Positions 13,733-20,558 of a DNA stretch of 64,000 bases are shown piece after piece. The stretch covers positions 2,294,001 to 2,358,000 of the forward strand of contig NZ_CP154608.1 in NCBI RefSeq assembly GCF_039555325.1, written 5' to 3'. The notes below the pieces were generated by a model. That model made no database searches and was not told the origin of the DNA. It saw only the letters and a list, made by a program, of their open reading frames with translations. Source of the stretch: Sphingomicrobium sp. XHP0239. Its GTDB lineage: Bacteria; Pseudomonadota; Alphaproteobacteria; Sphingomonadales; Sphingomonadaceae. The translations under genes and the position numbers were made by a program. Numbering within the stretch: position 1 is the stretch's first letter; each line of letters begins with the position of its first letter.

Positions 13733-16696
13733 CTACCAGGCGACCTGGAACCCTGCGCGGGCCCCGACCTTGGCATCGCGGCCCGTCACGCCGATCCCGG
13801 CGTTGAACGAACTGCGTTCGCTGGTGCGCGCCGAAAGGGCGACGCTGGCAGCGACCTGCTCGTCGAAGTAACCGACACCGCCCGACAGGCCGAAGTTGGC
13901 ATCATCGGGGAGGTAGGGCGATTCCATCGACAGGGCGAGCGCCACGCCGGCGGTCGCGTCACGGATGCTGTCGCGGTTTTCCTCGGTCAGCTGGAACAGC
14001 GTATCGACGTTGCCCTGAAGGCCAGCAAGACTGCCCTGCAGACCCGAGATGGCGCTCGTGTTGAGGCCGATCTGGTTGGCATTGTCCATGATCGCCATCG
14101 CATTGGCGGTCACGTCGGTCTGCCGCGCCAGACCCGTAAGGTCGATCGAGGACGTCCCGAGCGTACCGTTGCTGTCGGCGGTCACGAAGCTGATCGGTCC
14201 GACCTGGCTCTGCGTGCTGGTGCCGAGACCCGCGATCACGACCTGGCCGTCATTGGTGGCCGTCGCCCCGTTGCCGATGGCGATGCTGTTGGTGCCGCTG
14301 GCAACCGCCTCGTTGCCCATGGCGACCGAACCGTCACCCGACGCTTCGGCGGCTTCACCGACCGCGACCGACCGCACGCCATTGGCGTTGGCGAGATGGC
14401 CGAGAGCCGTGGCCCGTTCGGCATCCGCGACCGCGCGCCAACCGTAGGCCGTGGCCCCCGGTCCCTGCGCGACCGCTTGCCCGCCGACCGCCGTGGTCGA
14501 AGGACCGCTGGCGATGGTGTTCGAGATGTCGTTGTTCGGATCGTTGTCCTCGTTGACGTCGGCGATACCGTTGCCGTTGGCGTCCACGAAGTTGCGATTG
14601 CCGCCGATCGCGATGGCGTCGCCACCGTCGGCCGTCGCCATGTTGCCGATCGCGATGCTGTTGTCGCCGCTGGCATTGGACAGGTTGCCGAGCGCGACCG
14701 ACTGGTCCCCGCTGGCGACCGCATCCTCGGCACCGGCAAAGCTCTGATCGCCGCTGGCGGTGGTCTGGTGACCAACCGCAGTGGCCATCGCGCCGGTGGC
14801 CTGGCTCTGCCAGCCGAGCGCGGTGGCACCCGGCGTCGTGGCATCGGACTCGCCGCCCAGGGCGACGGTCGAATTGCCCTGTGCGTTGGCTTCCGAACCG
14901 ATGGCGATCGCATCGACGCCGTTGGCGACCGAATCGCCGCCGATGGCGACCGATTCGTCACCCTGCGCGTCGGCTGCGGCCCCATCGCTGTTGACCTCGA
15001 AATAGACCAGCTCGCCGGTGTTCTGATCGACCTGGACCGAGCCCGCGAAGCCGGCATCGGCGATCGCCTGGTTGAGCTGCGCGAGATTCACCGCGTCGGT
15101 GTCCTGCGTGCCAGCGGCGACGTTGGTGATCTGGCGAAGCGCACCGGCCGAACCGACCGACACCGTATTGGCGCGATTGGCGACCGACCCGTTGCCCAGA
15201 GCGACACTGTTGGCCGCCGTGGCGCTCGAAAGGTCGCCGATCGCGACGGCGCGGCTGCCCGATGCACTGGCGGCTTCACCGACCGCGACCGAGCGAAGGC
15301 CCGTCGCTTCGGCAAGGTGGCCGAGCGCGGTGGCGCGTTCGGCGTCCGCAACGGCGCGCCAGCCATAGGCCGTCGCACCCGGACCCTGTGCCAGCGCCTG
15401 GCCGCCGACGACCGTGGTCGAGGGGCCGTTGGCAGTGGTGTTGCGCACGTCGTTGTCGGGATCGTCGTCTTCGTTCACGTCGATGATGCCATTGCCGTCG
15501 GCATCCACGAAGTCGCGGTTGCCGCCGATTGCGATGGCGTCGCCGCCGGTCGCGCTGGCAAGGTTGCCGATCGCGATGGCGTTGGTGTCGGACGCGGTCG
15601 CGCCTTCACCGACGGCGACCGACCGCACGCCATTGGCATTGGCGAGATGGCCCAGCGCGGTAGCGCGCTCGGCATCGGCGACACTGCGCCAGCCGAAGGC
15701 GCTGGCCCCCGGGCCCATCGCGACGCTCTCGCCGCCGACCGCAGTGGTCGAATTGCCGTTGGCCATCGCATTGTCGCCGACCGCCAGCGCGTCGATGCCG
15801 TCGGCCGAACTCTCGTTGCCGATCGCGGTCGCGAAGTCGCTGGAGGCGACCGCCGCTTCACCGATGGCGACCGAGCGGATGCCTGTCGCTTCGGCGAGAT
15901 GGCCGAGCGCGGTGGCGCGTTCGCCGTCCGCGACCGAACGCCAGCCATAGGCCGTTGCGCCCGGACCTTGCGCCAGCGCCTGTCCACCGACGACCGTAGT
16001 CGACGGACCGTTGGCGGTCGTGTTGCGCACGTCGTTGTCGGGATCGTCGTCTTCGTTGACATCGGCGATGCCGTTGCCGTTCGCGTCGACATAATCGCGG
16101 TTGCCGCCGATCGCGATGGCGTCGCCGCCGGTCGCGCTGGCGAGGTTGCCGATAGCGATCGCGTTGCTGTCGGCAGCCGTGGCGGCTTCACCGATAGCGA
16201 CCGAACGAAGGCCGTTGGCATTGGCGAGATGGCCGAGCGCGGTGGCGCGTTCGGCATCGGCGACGGCGCGCCAGCCATAAGCCGTGGCGCCCGGGCCGAT
16301 CGCCTGGGCCTGACCGCCGACCGCGGTCGTCGACGGGCCGATGGCCATCGTGTCGGACACGTCGTTGTCGGGATCGTCGTCCTCGTTCACGTCGGCGATG
16401 CCGTTGTTGTTCGCATCGACGAAGTTGCGGTTGCCGCCGATCGCGATGGCGTCGCCGCCTTCGGCCGTCGCGCGGTTGCCGATCGCGATGGCGTCGTCGC
16501 CGGTCGCGCTGGCATCCTCGCCGCAGGCAAGCGCCTCGTCGCCGTCGGCTTCGGCGCCGGCGTCATCGTCGGCGGGGGTGGCGCTGTCGTCGTCCTCCGT
16601 GTCGAGGAGGCATTCCTGCGCCTGTGCGGGAGTGGAAAGGGTAAAGGTCGCGACGCCCGTAAGAAGGGCGGCGGTCGTTGCGGTCATGATCTTCAT
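13733..16696 (-). CDS. Trimeric autotransporter adhesin (YadA-like)
   Basis: A 987-residue outer-membrane adhesin. A signal peptide ends at about residue 25 (STPAQAQ). The head consists of tens of 14-residue YadA-head repeats of the form xAxAIGxxAxAxGxx. A neck motif (VSVGSAGALRQITNVAAG, then DAVNLAQL) sits near residue 530 and is followed by a second head block. A short stalk and the beta-barrel anchor form the last ~75 residues, ending GARAGFQVAW with a terminal aromatic. Four inserts with a calcium-loop-like pattern interrupt the heads. The ATG at 16696 has AGGAG about 7 nt upstream, and I preferred it to a longer reading. It is transcribed alone and convergent with the membrane protein. 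Confidence 0.92.
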   Translation of the reverse strand: MKIMTATTAALLTGVATFTLSTPAQAQECLLDTEDDDSATPADDDAGAEADGDEALACGEDASATGDDAIAIGNRATAEGGDAIAIGGNRNFVDANNNGIADVNEDDDPDNDVSDTMAIGPSTTAVGGQAQAIGPGATAYGWRAVADAERATALGHLANANGLRSVAIGEAATAADSNAIAIGNLASATGGDAIAIGGNRDYVDANGNGIADVNEDDDPDNDVRNTTANGPSTTVVGGQALAQGPGATAYGWRSVADGERATALGHLAEATGIRSVAIGEAAVASSDFATAIGNESSADGIDALAVGDNAMANGNSTTAVGGESVAMGPGASAFGWRSVADAERATALGHLANANGVRSVAVGEGATASDTNAIAIGNLASATGGDAIAIGGNRDFVDADGNGIIDVNEDDDPDNDVRNTTANGPSTTVVGGQALAQGPGATAYGWRAVADAERATALGHLAEATGLRSVAVGEAASASGSRAVAIGDLSSATAANSVALGNGSVANRANTVSVGSAGALRQITNVAAGTQDTDAVNLAQLNQAIADAGFAGSVQVDQNTGELVYFEVNSDGAAADAQGDESVAIGGDSVANGVDAIAIGSEANAQGNSTVALGGESDATTPGATALGWQSQATGAMATAVGHQTTASGDQSFAGAEDAVASGDQSVALGNLSNASGDNSIAIGNMATADGGDAIAIGGNRNFVDANGNGIADVNEDNDPNNDISNTIASGPSTTAVGGQAVAQGPGATAYGWRAVADAERATALGHLANANGVRSVAVGEAAEASGDGSVAMGNEAVASGTNSIAIGNGATATNDGQVVIAGLGTSTQSQVGPISFVTADSNGTLGTSSIDLTGLARQTDVTANAMAIMDNANQIGLNTSAISGLQGSLAGLQGNVDTLFQLTEENRDSIRDATAGVALALSMESPYLPDDANFGLSGGVGYFDEQVAASVALSARTSERSSFNAGIGVTGRDAKVGARAGFQVAW
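14517..14602 (-). repeat. Calcium-loop-like insert, copy 4 (near residue 710)
   Basis: Encodes GGNRNFVDANGNGIADVNED followed by NDPNNDI. This is one of four copies of the same unit inside the adhesin head, and it is the most diverged. The pattern D-x-N-x-N-G-x-x-D-x-x-E resembles EF-hand and thrombospondin-type-3 calcium loops. Confidence 0.8.
15440..15524 (-). repeat. Calcium-loop-like insert, copy 3 (near residue 405)
   Basis: Encodes GGNRDFVDADGNGIIDVNED followed by DDPDNDV. Same unit as the other three copies, here with Asp at the third loop position. It is flanked by near-identical YadA head repeats, consistent with duplication of a whole module of about 110 residues. Confidence 0.8.
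16021..16106 (-). repeat. Calcium-loop-like insert, copy 2 (near residue 207)
   Basis: Encodes GGNRDYVDANGNGIADVNED followed by DDPDNDV. The DNA is nearly the same as copy 3, including the run after it encoding RNTTANGPSTTVVGGQALAQ. Confidence 0.8.
16351..16436 (-). repeat. Calcium-loop-like insert, copy 1 (near residue 97)
   Basis: Encodes GGNRNFVDANNNGIADVNED followed by DDPDNDV, the first of four copies. It lies just after an acidic N-terminal stretch of the mature protein. Confidence 0.8.
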
Positions 16697-16959
16697 GAAA
16701 GAGCTCCTGTTGCTGGCACGATCACGACAGGATCCCCCGCGACGAAGCGAAGGGCAGAACGTTGAAGGGAAAATCGCGGGATTGCTTCTTCCTCGAACCG
16801 TCCGCAGGCAGACCTGACGCGGCACCGCCAAGAGAGGCGATGCAGGACGGTAACGCCGTTAACTATGCGTTATGTTCCGCGTTAACTTTCGATTAAACGC
16901 CTATTCGGGGTCGGCTCGTCCGTTTGCTGCCACGGTCCATCCCGTCGCTGAGAGAGCGA

Positions 16960-17466
16960 TCAGTCGAAATGCAGCCGACGGTATTTTCCGCGAAAGTAGA
17001 GCAAGGGATCGGGGCCCTTTTCGAAGCCCGCCCGCACGATGCGGCCGACCAGGATCAGGTGGTCGCCACCGTCATGGACCGCGTGATGCGCGCATTCGAA
17101 CTGGGCGAGGCTGCCCTCCAGCAGCGGCGATCCCCCCTGTCCCCGGGTCCAGCGGGTTCGTCCGAACCGGTCCTCTCCGCGCGTGGAAAAGGTGATGGAG
17201 GCGGGACGCTGCTCGGTCCGCAGGACGTTGATCGCGAAATGAGCGGCCTGGCTCAACGGCGCGGCGCTCGTCGCGCTCTTGGCCAGGCAGACGAGCAGCA
17301 GCGGCGGATCGAGACTGACGCTGGTGAAGCTGTTGGCGGTCAGCCCGTGCGGAATGCCCTCGCCATCGGCGCAGGTCACCACCGTCACCCCCGTCGCGAA
17401 ACAGCCCATCGCATCGCGCAGGGCCCGCGGGTCTCCGCCGTCTTCGTAAGTCTGCCACTCGCTCAT
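16960..17466 (-). CDS. Flavin reductase family protein
   Basis: A 168-residue flavin reductase-like domain protein. Family features are MGCFATGVTVVTC, the segment GLTANSFTSVSLDPPLLLVC that binds flavin, and HAVHDGGDHLILVGRI near the C-terminus. Such proteins use NAD(P)H to supply reduced flavin to a partner monooxygenase, or act as small flavin oxidoreductases. The ATG overlaps the phhA stop by 4 nt, so it is translationally coupled to phenylalanine hydroxylase. PhhA uses pterin rather than flavin, so the link is not obvious. A two-component monooxygenase partner is not visible in the window. Confidence 0.87.
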   Translation of the reverse strand: MSEWQTYEDGGDPRALRDAMGCFATGVTVVTCADGEGIPHGLTANSFTSVSLDPPLLLVCLAKSATSAAPLSQAAHFAINVLRTEQRPASITFSTRGEDRFGRTRWTRGQGGSPLLEGSLAQFECAHHAVHDGGDHLILVGRIVRAGFEKGPDPLLYFRGKYRRLHFD

Positions 17467-18266
17467 CGAGCGGTGGCATAGCTCTCCGCCTGTCCCGCGC
17501 CAAGCGCTGCGAGCCGATCGACGCTTACCTCCACCAAATCGCGCGCGGAGGTCTCCAGGCTGTCGGACACGAAATAGAGCGGCTGGAACCGGTCGGAGCG
17601 ATAAGGGGTCGCGGCGGCGTCGGGCACCGTGAAGCGCGGACGCGGCACGTCGGCCTCGAGGCTGAACCGCGCCTCCCCGAAACTCGACGCCAGTCCGGCC
17701 CCCCAGATCTTCACCGCACCATCCTCGCGGGCCAGTCCGAATTCGACCGTATGCCAGTAGAGACGGCTGACCAGCTCGGCGTGACCCGCCGCACAGGCCG
17801 CGACCCCCAGGACGCCCATCGCTTCCATCAATTCCGCCATCGGGCCGTGCGCCAGCACGGGGACGTGTCCGAAGATGTCGTGGAAGCAGTCGGGTTCCTC
17901 CAGATAGTCGAGGTTGCCCCCGTCGCGGATGAAATTACCGATCGGAAAGACCCGGTCGCGCAACATCGCGAAGAACGCGGCGTCGGGCACGATCCCCGCC
18001 ACCGGCACCAACCGCCACCCCGTCGCATGGTGAAGCCGGCGGGTCAGCCGATCGAGCGCCGGAATGCCCGGTTCGTCGAGCCCCAGTCGCTTCAGACCCG
18101 CCAAGAAGGGCGAGACGGCGGTCCTGCCGAGCAGCGCCACCTGTCGGTCGTACAGACGGTCCCACGTCGCATGGTCCGCCCGCGTATACCGCGACCATTG
18201 TTCCTCGACGATATGATCGCGCCAGTCCGCGCCGGTCGGCATCGGGGCGATTTTATCCTGGAACAT
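17463..18266 (-). CDS. phhA: Phenylalanine 4-monooxygenase
   Basis: A 267-residue bacterial aromatic amino acid hydroxylase that converts phenylalanine to tyrosine with tetrahydrobiopterin and O2. The iron ligands are visible as His129 and His134 in CFHDIFGHVP and Glu175 in YWHTVEFGLA. The length is normal for the bacterial single-domain enzyme. The ATG has a strong AAGGAG 8 nt upstream. The leader upstream contains a short reading frame with Tyr codons and an intrinsic terminator, suggesting attenuation. The pterin-recycling enzyme phhB lies upstream on the same strand. Confidence 0.96.
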   Translation of the reverse strand: MFQDKIAPMPTGADWRDHIVEEQWSRYTRADHATWDRLYDRQVALLGRTAVSPFLAGLKRLGLDEPGIPALDRLTRRLHHATGWRLVPVAGIVPDAAFFAMLRDRVFPIGNFIRDGGNLDYLEEPDCFHDIFGHVPVLAHGPMAELMEAMGVLGVAACAAGHAELVSRLYWHTVEFGLAREDGAVKIWGAGLASSFGEARFSLEADVPRPRFTVPDAAATPYRSDRFQPLYFVSDSLETSARDLVEVSVDRLAALGAGQAESYATAR

Positions 18267-18302
18267 GGTCGCTTCTCCTTGGTGTCGTGAACGTCGGGCA
18301 AT

Positions 18303-18339
18303 AAAAAACCCGCCGGGCGGAAGGCCGGGCGGGCGGTGG
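18303..18339 (-). terminator. Attenuator terminator with overlapping antiterminator arm in the phhA leader
   Basis: Read leftward, the stem CCCGCC-CGG / CCG-(CCC)-GGCGGG (18333 to 18309) is followed by six T (18308-18303), 36 nt before the phhA start codon. The 13 nt at 18339-18327 include the terminator's 5' arm. They can instead pair at 12 of 13 positions with 18392-18380, which lies inside the upstream leader reading frame. The two structures exclude each other. Confidence 0.72.
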
Positions 18340-18368
18340 TCTCCTGGAGTTTTTCGGACTGTCCGTCG

Positions 18369-18455
18369 TTACTCCGTCGCCACCGCGCGCCCATAGGCGT
18401 ACGTCCACGCATAAGCGCGGCCGATGGTGCGAATGAGGGCGATCCGGGTGGTCAT
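18369..18455 (-). CDS. Putative phhA leader peptide (28 residues) with Tyr/Trp codons
   Basis: A 28-codon frame begins MTTRIALIRTIGRA and continues YAWTYAYG before a short Ala-rich end. Tyr codons are 15, 19 and 21, and Trp is codon 17. It ends 30 nt before the antiterminator/terminator region of phhA. The segment before the aromatic codons (18420-18415) can pair with 18388-18383 just after them, giving the 1:2 hairpin of a classic attenuator with all aromatic codons in its loop. A Tyr- or Trp-starved ribosome would free segment 2 to form the antiterminator. The Shine-Dalgarno sequence is weak, so translation needs proof. Confidence 0.6.
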   Translation of the reverse strand: MTTRIALIRTIGRAYAWTYAYGRAVATE

Positions 18456-18552
18456 TGCGGATCAGCCTATCGCCCGGCAACGATGAAGGAAAGATGAAAC
18501 TGGCCCGTACCGCGCCACCTCACGAACGAGCGCGGCCCGTTACAACGGAGTT

Positions 18553-18804
18553 CTAGGCCAGAAGCGCGTCGATCGCGGCGGCCAACCGTTCGTCCTTCTC
18601 GGTGACCTTGTTTCCCGCATCGTGGGTGGTGAGGGTCAGATCGACCGTGTTCCAGACGTTGCGGATCTCGGGGTGATGGTCGCGCTCCTGGGCAAGCAGC
18701 GCCACCCGCGCGAGAAATCCGAACGCTTCGGAGAAATCCTCGAACTCGAGGTGGCGGGTGAGGGCGTCGCCCTCGCGGGTCCATTGATGGGAATGTTCGC
18801 TCAT
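18553..18804 (-). CDS. phhB: Pterin-4a-carbinolamine dehydratase
   Basis: An 83-residue PCD/DCoH protein that dehydrates 4a-hydroxytetrahydropterin, the by-product of phenylalanine hydroxylase, so that the cofactor can be recycled. The active-site pattern DHHPEIRNVWNTVDLTLTTH is intact, with His43, His44 and His61. It lies on the same strand as phhA, separated from it by the attenuator leader of roughly 290 nt, so phhB may be expressed independently of the attenuator. It is divergent from the thiolase gene. Confidence 0.94.
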   Translation of the reverse strand: MSEHSHQWTREGDALTRHLEFEDFSEAFGFLARVALLAQERDHHPEIRNVWNTVDLTLTTHDAGNKVTEKDERLAAAIDALLA

Positions 18805-18888
18805 GCCCCCTCCAACCCACCGTCGCGGCCTCGGGTTGCAACCGCCCGCCCGTCACGCCAGTTGGAGGGAATGGAAGAAGGAGCGCCC

Positions 18889-20091
18889 ATGTCCGAAGCC
18901 TATATCTGCGATGCCGTTCGGACCCCGGTCGGGAAGTTCGGCGGCGCTTTGTCGCAGGTGCGTGCCGACGATCTGGCCGCCGTCCCGCTCGCCGCACTGA
19001 AGGAGCGCAATCCCGGCGTGGACTGGAGCCGGCTCGACGATGTCATCCTCGGCTGCGCGAACCAGGCGGGGGAGGACAATCGCAACGTCGCGCGCATGGC
19101 CGCGCTGCTCGGGGGTCTTGGCGAAAGTGCGCCCGGAACGACCGTCAACCGCCTGTGCGGTTCGGGGCTCGACTGTCTCGCGATGGCCGGGCGGGCGATC
19201 AAGGCCGGCGAAGCCGATCTGATCGTTGCGGGCGGAGTGGAAAGCATGACCCGCGCACCGTTCGTGATGCCCAAGGCCGCGCAGGCATGGGATCGCAACA
19301 ACAGCATCTACGACACCACCATCGGCTGGCGCTTCGTGAACCGCCGGCTGAAGGAGGAGTTCGGAATCGATTCGATGCCCGAAACGGCTGAGAACGTCGC
19401 CGAGATGTACGACGTCAGCCGCGAGGACCAGGACCGTTTCGCGCACGAAAGCCAGGTCCGCGCCGCGCGGGCGCAGGAAAGCGGCCGCCTCGCCGCCGAG
19501 ATCGTCCCCGTCACCATTCCGCAGCGCAAGGGCGATCCCGTCGTCGTCGATCGCGACGAGCATCTGCGCCTGTCCGATCTCGACACGCTCGCCAAGCTGC
19601 GCCCGATCGTGCGCGACGGCGGTACTGTGACCGCAGGCAACGCGAGCGGCGTCAACGACGGCGCTGCCGCGCTGATCGTCGCGTCGAAGAAAGCGGTGGA
19701 AGAACATGGCCTTACGCCCCGTGCCCGAATCCTCGGCGGCGCTGCGGCGGGGGTGCCGCCCCGCATCATGGGGATCGGCCCGGCACCTGCGTCTACCAAA
19801 CTGTTGCACCGTCTGGCGCTGACCATCGACGCCTTCGGAACGATCGAACTGAACGAAGCCTTCGCCGCGCAGGCGTTGCCCGTCCTGCGCGAACTGGGAA
19901 TTCCCGACGATGCGCCGCACGTGAACCCCAATGGCGGCGCGATCGCCATTGGCCACCCGCTGGGGATGAGCGGCGCACGCCTCGCGATCACCGCAGTGGA
20001 GGAAATGCAGCGCGAAGGGCATGACAAGGCCCTCTGCACGATGTGCATCGGCGTGGGTCAGGGCATCGCGCTGGCCTTGGAGCGGGTCTGA
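18889..20091 (+). CDS. Acetyl-CoA acyltransferase, 3-oxoadipyl-CoA thiolase type
   Basis: A 400-residue thiolase. The acyl-binding Cys90 lies in NRLCGSGLDCLAMAGR, the His in GGAIAIGHPLGMSG, and the second Cys in TMCIGVGQG. The RLCGSGLDCLA and GGVESMTRAPFVMPKA blocks resemble PcaF/PaaJ, which cleave 3-oxoadipyl-CoA to succinyl-CoA and acetyl-CoA at the end of the beta-ketoadipate and phenylacetate pathways. The next gene, paaD, favours the phenylacetate role. The start at 18889 has AAGGAG 7 nt upstream. A general acetyl-CoA C-acetyltransferase is the alternative. Confidence 0.88.
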   Translation: MSEAYICDAVRTPVGKFGGALSQVRADDLAAVPLAALKERNPGVDWSRLDDVILGCANQAGEDNRNVARMAALLGGLGESAPGTTVNRLCGSGLDCLAMAGRAIKAGEADLIVAGGVESMTRAPFVMPKAAQAWDRNNSIYDTTIGWRFVNRRLKEEFGIDSMPETAENVAEMYDVSREDQDRFAHESQVRAARAQESGRLAAEIVPVTIPQRKGDPVVVDRDEHLRLSDLDTLAKLRPIVRDGGTVTAGNASGVNDGAAALIVASKKAVEEHGLTPRARILGGAAAGVPPRIMGIGPAPASTKLLHRLALTIDAFGTIELNEAFAAQALPVLRELGIPDDAPHVNPNGGAIAIGHPLGMSGARLAITAVEEMQREGHDKALCTMCIGVGQGIALALERV

Positions 20092-20093
20092 AC

Positions 20094-20558
20094 ATGGGGA
20101 CGCCCACGATCGACAAAGCGGGCATTCTTGCCGTGCTGGCCGAGGTGCCCGATCCCGAGATTCCCGTCGTGTCTGTCATCGATCTTGGGATCGTACGAGG
20201 GATCGAAGAAGGCGCGCGAGGGCCCGCCGTCATCATCACGCCAACCTATTCGGGTTGCCCTGCCACGGTGGAGATCGAGAACAGCGTCCGCGCCGCACTC
20301 GACGCCAACGGCTATTCCGATGTCGCCATCGTCACCCAACTCTTTCCGCCCTGGACGACCGACGACATGAGCGACGAGGCCAAGGCCAAGCTCAAGGCAT
20401 ATGGCATTGCTCCGCCGAGCCGGACCGAGAAAGCGGAATGCCCGAATTGCGGTTCGGAAGACACCAAGGAAATTAGCCGGTTCGGTTCAACGCCGTGCAA
20501 GGCACAATGGCAGTGCCAGGATTGCCTCGAACCCTTCGATCGGTTCAAATGTCACTGA
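20094..20558 (+). CDS. paaD: PaaD, phenylacetyl-CoA epoxidase assembly factor
   Basis: A 154-residue protein with an N-terminal MIP18/DUF59 domain ([20 protein letters not shown] and TPTYSGCPA) and a C-terminal zinc-ribbon-like segment with CPNCGS and CQDC. This two-part layout is typical of PaaD, thought to mature the PaaABCE phenylacetyl-CoA epoxidase. It starts 2 nt after the thiolase stop. None of the other paa genes are in the window, so this is a detached pair or the end of a scattered pathway. Its 3' end overlaps aroC by 7 nt on the opposite strand. Confidence 0.88.

Follow-up and report, generated by a model that had tools for sequence, protein, structure and literature searches.

E. 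coli trpL, hisL, pheL, thrL and leuL are ribosome-mediated transcription attenuators of amino-acid operons, and in the four-segment trp attenuator of this organism a protector hairpin (1:2) makes untranslated RNA terminate. We analyzed a 64,000-nucleotide stretch of the genome of Sphingomicrobium sp. XHP0239 (hereafter the window), in which positions 18303–18455 carry a putative attenuator in front of phhA, encoding phenylalanine 4-monooxygenase (PAH, here PhhA). Like the E. coli systems, this stretch has a short open reading frame (ORF) in which the codon of the end product is abundant, together with an alternative helix and an intrinsic terminator, and a putatively biosynthetic gene follows; it differs from them in its Tyr codons, in its target, an aerobic hydroxylase usually classed as catabolic, and in having no conserved 1:2 hairpin.

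Several described systems share part of this arrangement. The trpLE(G) attenuator of S. meliloti is alphaproteobacterial as well, and its RNA starts with the leader ATG (PMC7298713), which is similar to the very short 5′ UTR inferred for the window, but it senses Trp and controls trpE(G). The candidate proteobacterial attenuators listed in PMC3223726 respond to His, Thr, Trp, Phe or the branched-chain amino acids, and Tyr is absent from that list. A table in PMC1173090 places putative attenuators before tyrA operons, a predicted control of the last step to tyrosine as at phhA; their target is tyrA rather than phhA, and leader codons are not shown in that part of the paper. Control of phhA itself by PhhR/TyrR has been reported in Pseudomonas aeruginosa and Shewanella (PMC1173090, PMC3223726), but these systems use a regulator protein and follow a catabolic logic, and the sections available describe no leader peptide. 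Finally, Dyella japonica, Echinicola vietnamensis and Legionella pneumophila, in which TyrA is missing or redundant, obtain tyrosine through PAH (GapMind, PMC7311316), the same role as the one proposed here, with no leader or attenuator described in the accessible portion of that paper. The kind of attenuator is thus known and PAH is already known as a tyrosine source, while the combination of Tyr codons with a phhA target is new to us: no phhA attenuator was found among the matches listed in a search of titles and abstract starts, conducted mostly outside the subscription literature, and phhA, tyrosine and phenylalanine do not appear in the main text of one attenuator survey (PMC2965389).

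From the comparative evidence presented below, we consider it highly probable (roughly 0.86) that positions 18303–18455 control phhA by ribosome-mediated transcription attenuation in response to charged Tyr-tRNA, and that PhhA serves as a tyrosine-making enzyme. Ribosome stalling, read-through and the in vivo role of PhhA are what we infer from these sequences.

The leader and its gene in the window

The leader ORF (18369–18455, minus strand, as are all features here unless noted) was read directly from the sequence and consists of 28 codons plus a stop (MTTRIALIRTIGRAYAWTYAYGRAVATE), with Tyr codons at positions 15 (18413–18411), 19 (18401–18399) and 21 (18395–18393) and Trp at 17. Its last seven codons (18372–18392, segment 2) would form the 5′ strand of an antiterminator, the 3′ strand of which (segment 3, 18326–18350) overlaps the 5′ arm of the terminator; pairing between the two segments is conserved over 45 leaders, as detailed below. 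The core of this helix pairs GGGCGCGCGGTGG (18392–18380) with CCACCGCCCGCCC (18339–18327) at 12 of 13 positions, the computed energy of the segment 2/segment 3 duplex is −34.4 kcal/mol, and six paired nucleotides of segment 3 are common to the antiterminator and the terminator arm. In addition, CCGCGC (18420–18415) is complementary to GCGCGG (18388–18383), the potential 1:2 pairing. The intrinsic terminator (18303–18334) comprises a stem-loop at 18334–18308 (−19.3 kcal/mol) and a run of six T (18308–18303), and phhA (17463–18266, 267 aa), the putatively regulated gene, starts 36 nt past this run. The sequence-only reading from which we started had listed the leader ORF, both complementary pairings, the terminator with its six T and the distance to phhA, and each was found where it had been placed.

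PhhA carries HDIFGH at residue 129 and YWHTVE at residue 170, which we take to be the iron-ligand motifs. It matched NCBIfam NF008877 (E 2.8e-69, 233.1 bits) and TIGR01267 (E 3.3e-69, 232.9 bits), in both cases below the cut-off (247 and 264.75, respectively). Directly 3′ of phhA, with a 4-nt overlap with its end, lies a flavin reductase-like gene (16960–17466) that is possibly co-transcribed with it; on the other side, the upstream neighbour of the leader is a gene for pterin-4a-carbinolamine dehydratase (phhB/pcd, 18553–18804; NCBIfam NF002017, 80.2 bits, cut-off 80). A long ORF further along the same strand (13733–16831) consists of repeated AIAIGNxASATGGDAIAIGG-like units, presumably resembling a trimeric autotransporter head.

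Between pcd and the leader there is a promoter-like motif (18466–18490), with TTCA at 18487–18484 and GATAGG at 18471–18466, the position of which would imply a very short 5′ UTR. This motif form was present in 35 of the 45 upstream regions, compared with a mean of 0.8 in shuffles, although the pattern was picked from these same sequences and the count is not independent. A sigma-70 promoter scan found no promoter. Region 17000–20000 contained one terminator-like site compared with 2.0 in shuffles, and the fold of the attenuator stretch had a z-score of −1.66, with 13 of 200 shuffles equally good. The layout in the window alone is therefore not beyond chance; chance was ruled out because the leader is conserved at phhA, is enriched in Tyr and retains the 2:3 pairing. 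We also compared 17800–18900 with Rfam 15 (4227 models) and found no match over the gathering score in the attenuator stretch, the best scores, BcKCsr2 with 16.7 bits (threshold 40) and isrK with 13.5 bits (threshold 50), being far under their thresholds, so that an element already described in Rfam was rejected.

Distribution and codon content of the leader

We proceeded to investigate the leader in 71 genomes of the genus, 65 of which contain phhA (69 genes). A covariance model was built from 44 leaders and run on the same 71 genomes; it has nine base pairs and is mostly sequence. The underlying alignment omits L040, which is a near copy of L019 from the same genome. The leader was found directly 5′ of 66 of the 69 phhA genes, in 64 of the 65 phhA-bearing genomes (71 best model hits against 69 phhA genes), a count that is not independent of the model, many of the searched genomes having supplied its sequences. 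Distances from the end of the leader to the start of the phhA match ranged from 23 to 144 nt, always on the same strand. Those without a leader were both phhA copies of G007 and the G010 copy beside a tyrA match; in two other genomes with two phhA copies each (G023 and G211), every copy has its own Tyr leader.

Closer inspection of individual loci gave the same picture. A short ORF containing at least two Tyr codons is present at 29 of the 30 phhA loci read first, and the ORF of the remaining one (L006) has a single Tyr codon, while the terminator pattern was present in all 34 leaders examined (these 30 loci and four more). A script requiring leader plus terminator was passed by 17 of 18 loci from Sphingomicrobium, Sphingomonas or Sphingomonadales records, a set that partly repeats the organisms of the genus genomes and in which the one miss (L098) shares the position of L006; none of nine loci from other groups passed. 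Relatives with sampled loci include Sphingomicrobium astaxanthinifaciens, S. nitratireducens, S. lutaoense, Sphingomonas cremea, S. edaphi and S. arenae. Loss of the frame or of its Tyr codons in close relatives, which would have spoken against the sequence-only reading, was not seen: both are kept.

Tyr accounts for 119 of 1149 residues (10.4%) in 45 leaders, compared with 20 Phe and five Trp (binomial P 6.6e-38 against a background of 2.5%, relatedness ignored), whereas six window genes together have 1.3% Tyr. The residue total is slightly shifted, since L100 and L104 were entered from a non-start codon and some other starts were chosen among in-frame candidates. Most of the Tyr codons are TAT (101, with 18 TAC). 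Tyr is present in all 45 leaders, with at least two in 44, bearing in mind that leaders were selected partly for Tyr codons, and the last Tyr codon stands eight codons before the stop in 32 of them (range 6–15). The first half of the peptide, on the other hand, varies widely among relatives. The five Trp among all leader residues led us to reject Trp as a co-signal, and the Trp codon at position 17, which the sequence-only reading had listed with the Tyr codons, is incidental.

The leader is narrowly distributed beyond the genus. In 149 family genomes (at least 90% complete), model hits above 60 bits occurred in this genus and in g62 (G100 and G177) only, the g62 leaders ending in YYYYYRRRAVFD and YAYRSTYRRRAVFD; the remaining listed hits scored 38.1 bits or less, and the one inspected (G085) is not before phhA. 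Direct reading of the 27 best-scoring family phhA loci outside the genus (L053–L079, from 123 genomes with phhA) identified a leader in both g62 loci and none in the other 25. In a tree of 98 phhA rows, the 37 leader-bearing rows together with two leaderless rows of the genus (G007 and G010) were separated from the 59 others by a 99/99 branch. The leader label requires three changes on this tree, compatible with one gain and two losses, the direction of which we infer on a tree rooted at its midpoint only.

The model also detected leaders with the same layout but other amino acids, codons and targets. WW-containing leader ORFs with terminators lie directly before trpD-like ORFs at L134 (G022), L139 (G237), L140 (G210) and L150 (G229) and are candidate Trp attenuators, their targets named by eye from translations. 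Thr/Ile- or Met-rich leader ORFs with terminators precede aspartokinase-homoserine dehydrogenase-like ORFs at L133 (G007), L135 (G003) and L147 (G231), target names again judged by eye from translations. No Trp leader was found in the 700 nt examined before trpD of the window's genome, where a trpG-like sequence precedes trpD.

Tyrosine and phenylalanine enzymes in the genus

In order to relate the leader to the metabolism of its hosts, we searched the genus genomes for TyrA (PF02153). It was over the cut-off in four of 71 genomes (G004, G007, G010 and G236; controls 14/14), weak matches below the cut-off in eight further genomes not being counted, and no match was found in the window's genome. 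With PhhA present and TyrA, the prephenate/arogenate dehydrogenase, absent, the window's genome has the combination expected of a biosynthetic PAH route to tyrosine. TyrA and leader are both present in G004, G010 and G236, and with a leader in 64 genomes it follows that TyrA is absent from 61 of these, in which PhhA is then the sole recognised tyrosine source. In G010 the tyrA match directly 3′ of the leaderless phhA copy (L156) is in two pieces in separate frames, which is either a sequencing error or a decaying gene. Neither phhA nor TyrA was over the cut-off in G015, G022, G032, G220, G226 and G231, and three of these (G022, G220 and G226, 99–100% complete) are perhaps tyrosine auxotrophs.

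Loss of TyrA does not require the leader, since none was seen in about 400 nt upstream of thirteen phhA loci that represent seven further genera without TyrA; 12 of these loci are in the phhA tree, among the 59 rows outside the leader-bearing group. We therefore rejected TyrA loss as a sufficient cause of the leader.

Prephenate dehydratase (PF00800) was present in 14 of the 71 genomes and not found in the other 57 (G000 and 56 others), the window's genome included, whereas type II chorismate mutase (PF01817) was present in 44, again including the window's genome. Phenylalanine would need to be imported or made by an unrecognised enzyme, since prephenate dehydratase is missing in most of the genus. 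In divergent members of the genus, a cluster of shikimate and phenylalanine genes precedes phhA. The order in G004 is chorismate mutase/DAHP synthase, EPSP synthase, prephenate dehydratase, chorismate synthase, aroB, aroE, the Tyr leader, phhA and a GntR regulator. G003 has, by Pfam, chorismate mutase, EPSP synthase, prephenate dehydratase, chorismate synthase, aroB, the leader and phhA, with no aroE in this cluster and no DAHP synthase match in its first ORF. In G240 the genes start as in G003 and G004, by eye, and chorismate mutase/DAHP synthase and prephenate dehydratase were confirmed. A shorter version (chorismate mutase, prephenate dehydratase, leader, phhA) occurs in G234, and G007 and G010 have these three genes in the same succession, the phhA at this place being without a leader. 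In the window, DAHP synthase, EPSP synthase and chorismate synthase lie on the same strand 2.3–6 kb upstream of phhA, and the immediate neighbours of the leader-phhA unit are pcd and the flavin reductase-like gene. A thiolase and a PaaD-like gene on the opposite strand (18622–20558) separate the phhA block from chorismate synthase; by sequence they appear to be phenylacetate-type degradation genes beside aromatic synthesis.

A real Tyr attenuator might merely curb tyrosine over-production in bacteria that use PhhA mainly to degrade phenylalanine. This is the best surviving of the alternatives, and we regard it as unlikely. Tyrosine degradation exists alongside, with homogentisate dioxygenase matched in 34 of 37 genomes of the genus, the thiolase and PaaD-like genes lie near phhA in the window, and bacterial PhhA is usually called catabolic (PMC1173090, PMC7311316). 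However, a degradation gene would be expected to be induced by its substrate rather than by tyrosine shortage, PhhA is the sole recognised source of tyrosine in the 61 leader-bearing genomes with TyrA not over the cut-off, and in the divergent genomes described above phhA comes after biosynthetic genes in one cluster. The earlier proposal that PhhA is a tyrosine-supply enzyme gains from the same two observations, TyrA being missing here and phhA lying in aromatic biosynthesis clusters in those divergent members, and tyrosine supply through PhhA is the reading we retain.

Pairing, switching and the meaning of the attenuator

To assess the predicted helices we computed duplex energies over 45 leaders. 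The 2:3 duplex had a mean of −21.4 kcal/mol, compared with −17.4 (s.d. 0.46, z −8.7) when segment 3 was shuffled and −17.4 (s.d. 0.42, z −9.4) when segment 2 was shuffled, and z was −6.9 in 20 leaders thinned for likeness. Of 1322 comparisons over 37 leaders, 932 showed better pairing of segment 3 with its own than with a foreign segment 2, 378 showed worse pairing and 12 were ties. These energies replaced a count in a fixed nine-base register (own 12.9, shuffled 8.9), which missed shifted registers. Segment 3 shifts register between leader types, and individual pairs were therefore counted in one type, the 14 window-type leaders: the seven-pair 2:3 core is intact in 98 of 98 cells, which 13 of 500 shuffles reach, and slid registers pair 33–75%. 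The compensatory changes that had been suggested as a check were found in part, with a two-sided G-C to A-U change in two of the 14 rows, but the number of pairs with such a change (one) is no more than in shuffles, of which 209 in 500 do as well. In the alignment of 44 leaders, RNAalifold predicted the terminator stem alone, with two-sided changes in three of nine pairs. The putative 2:3 antiterminator helix is well supported by these comparisons. Together with the presence of the leader at 66 of 69 phhA genes and the 10.4% Tyr of its residues, the z of −8.7 for this helix supports the earlier claim of a Tyr-codon attenuator on phhA.

The 1:2 pairing gave a different result: its energy was −18.0 kcal/mol compared with −18.9 and −17.5 in the two shuffles, and no pairing above shuffles was found in the 45 leaders (z +1.9 and −1.1; thinned +0.5). 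A conserved 1:2 hairpin was therefore rejected. The trp-type order first proposed holds for leader, 2:3 antiterminator and terminator but not for the 1:2 hairpin, which is complementary in the window and not conserved across leaders; because of this, the attenuator appears to have three segments and not to repeat the order of E. coli trp.

Under the proposed mechanism, when Tyr-tRNA is ample the ribosome would reach the leader stop codon and cover segment 2, leaving segment 3 free so that the terminator would form and phhA would be off. When Tyr-tRNA is short, the ribosome would stall at the Tyr codons, in the window leader at Tyr15 or Tyr19 (a stall at Tyr21 would leave part of segment 2 masked by the ribosome), and 2:3 pairing would take the 5′ arm of the terminator, allowing RNA polymerase to read into phhA.

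Computed folding of the window followed this scheme before the terminator 3′ arm was made, the 5′ arm being engaged at 0.86 with a stall at Tyr15, 0.51 at Tyr19, 0.00 at Tyr21, 0.01 at the stop and 0.86 without translation; untranslated window RNA should hence form the antiterminator in this model, that is, be ON. In the full RNA at equilibrium, terminator occupancy was 0.64 (Tyr15), 0.90 (Tyr19), 1.00 (Tyr21), 1.00 (stop) and 0.09 (untranslated). With ribosome footprints, the terminator wins at equilibrium in most of 37 leaders, stalled or not, and the switch would therefore have to be kinetic; equilibrium folding was rejected as a demonstration of a general switch, none being seen over these leaders. 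Occupancy of the terminator arm on stalling averaged 0.54 over 45 leaders and 0.57 with shuffled upstream sequence, and exceeded 0.5 in 24 leaders compared with a shuffle average of 29.8 (two of 45 at the stop). Co-transcriptional arm occupancy is thus not general evidence, because the shuffled control is equally high. The 2:3 helix and the 5′ arm of the terminator overlap by at least 3 nt in 35 of 45 leaders and by 2 nt in four, and in the remaining six (L016, L022, L026, L027, L029 and L036) the helix abuts the terminator without overlap. An antiterminator that would exclude the terminator is supported in the window by folding and in most leaders by overlap.

An effect of the leader on translation or RNA stability, or in trans through its peptide or the terminated RNA, rather than mainly through transcription attenuation in cis, is improbable, although such action could hold alongside the main reading. 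Attenuator leader RNAs and peptides can act in trans, as described for the S. meliloti trp leader (PMC7298713); the dominance of the terminator at equilibrium and the six leaders whose helix abuts it without overlap are also compatible with such action. Yet the unit is conserved in cis, 66 of the 71 best model hits adjoining phhA, helix and terminator arm overlap by 3 nt or more in the 35 leaders mentioned, and the first half of the peptide varies widely. Very improbable is a terminator that serves the gene preceding the leader, here pcd, with an accidental leader ORF and a phhA promoter further down: terminators between genes are common (2.0 such sites per 3 kb in shuffles), but the leader stays with phhA while its upstream neighbour changes from pcd in the window to aroE in G004, aroB in G003 and, read by eye, a tRNA-like sequence in L026 and L040, and conservation extends to its Tyr codons, to the distance between these and the stop, and to the 2:3 pairing.

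Taking attenuation in cis and tyrosine supply together, we would give even odds to a wider proposal, in which most of the genus would obtain tyrosine only by hydroxylating phenylalanine, in an animal-like way gauged by a Tyr-tRNA attenuator on phhA. This attenuator would derive from an ancestral cluster that began with DAHP synthase, included prephenate dehydratase and ended with PhhA, and would be of the three-segment type, ON in untranslated RNA, with phenylalanine imported or made by an unrecognised enzyme in most members while tyrosine would still be under tight control. If true, no Tyr-codon attenuator of the ribosome-mediated kind would have been described before on a phenylalanine hydroxylase. 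As judged from sequence, a gene that is mostly annotated as degradative appears to be managed as biosynthetic across a genus. The leader provides a codon-level readout of the use a cell makes of PhhA, suggesting as a rule for annotation that phhA with a Tyr leader indicates tyrosine supply through PhhA, and the source of phenylalanine in most of the genus becomes directly testable. Our analyses suggest that these bacteria make tyrosine from phenylalanine, much as animals do.
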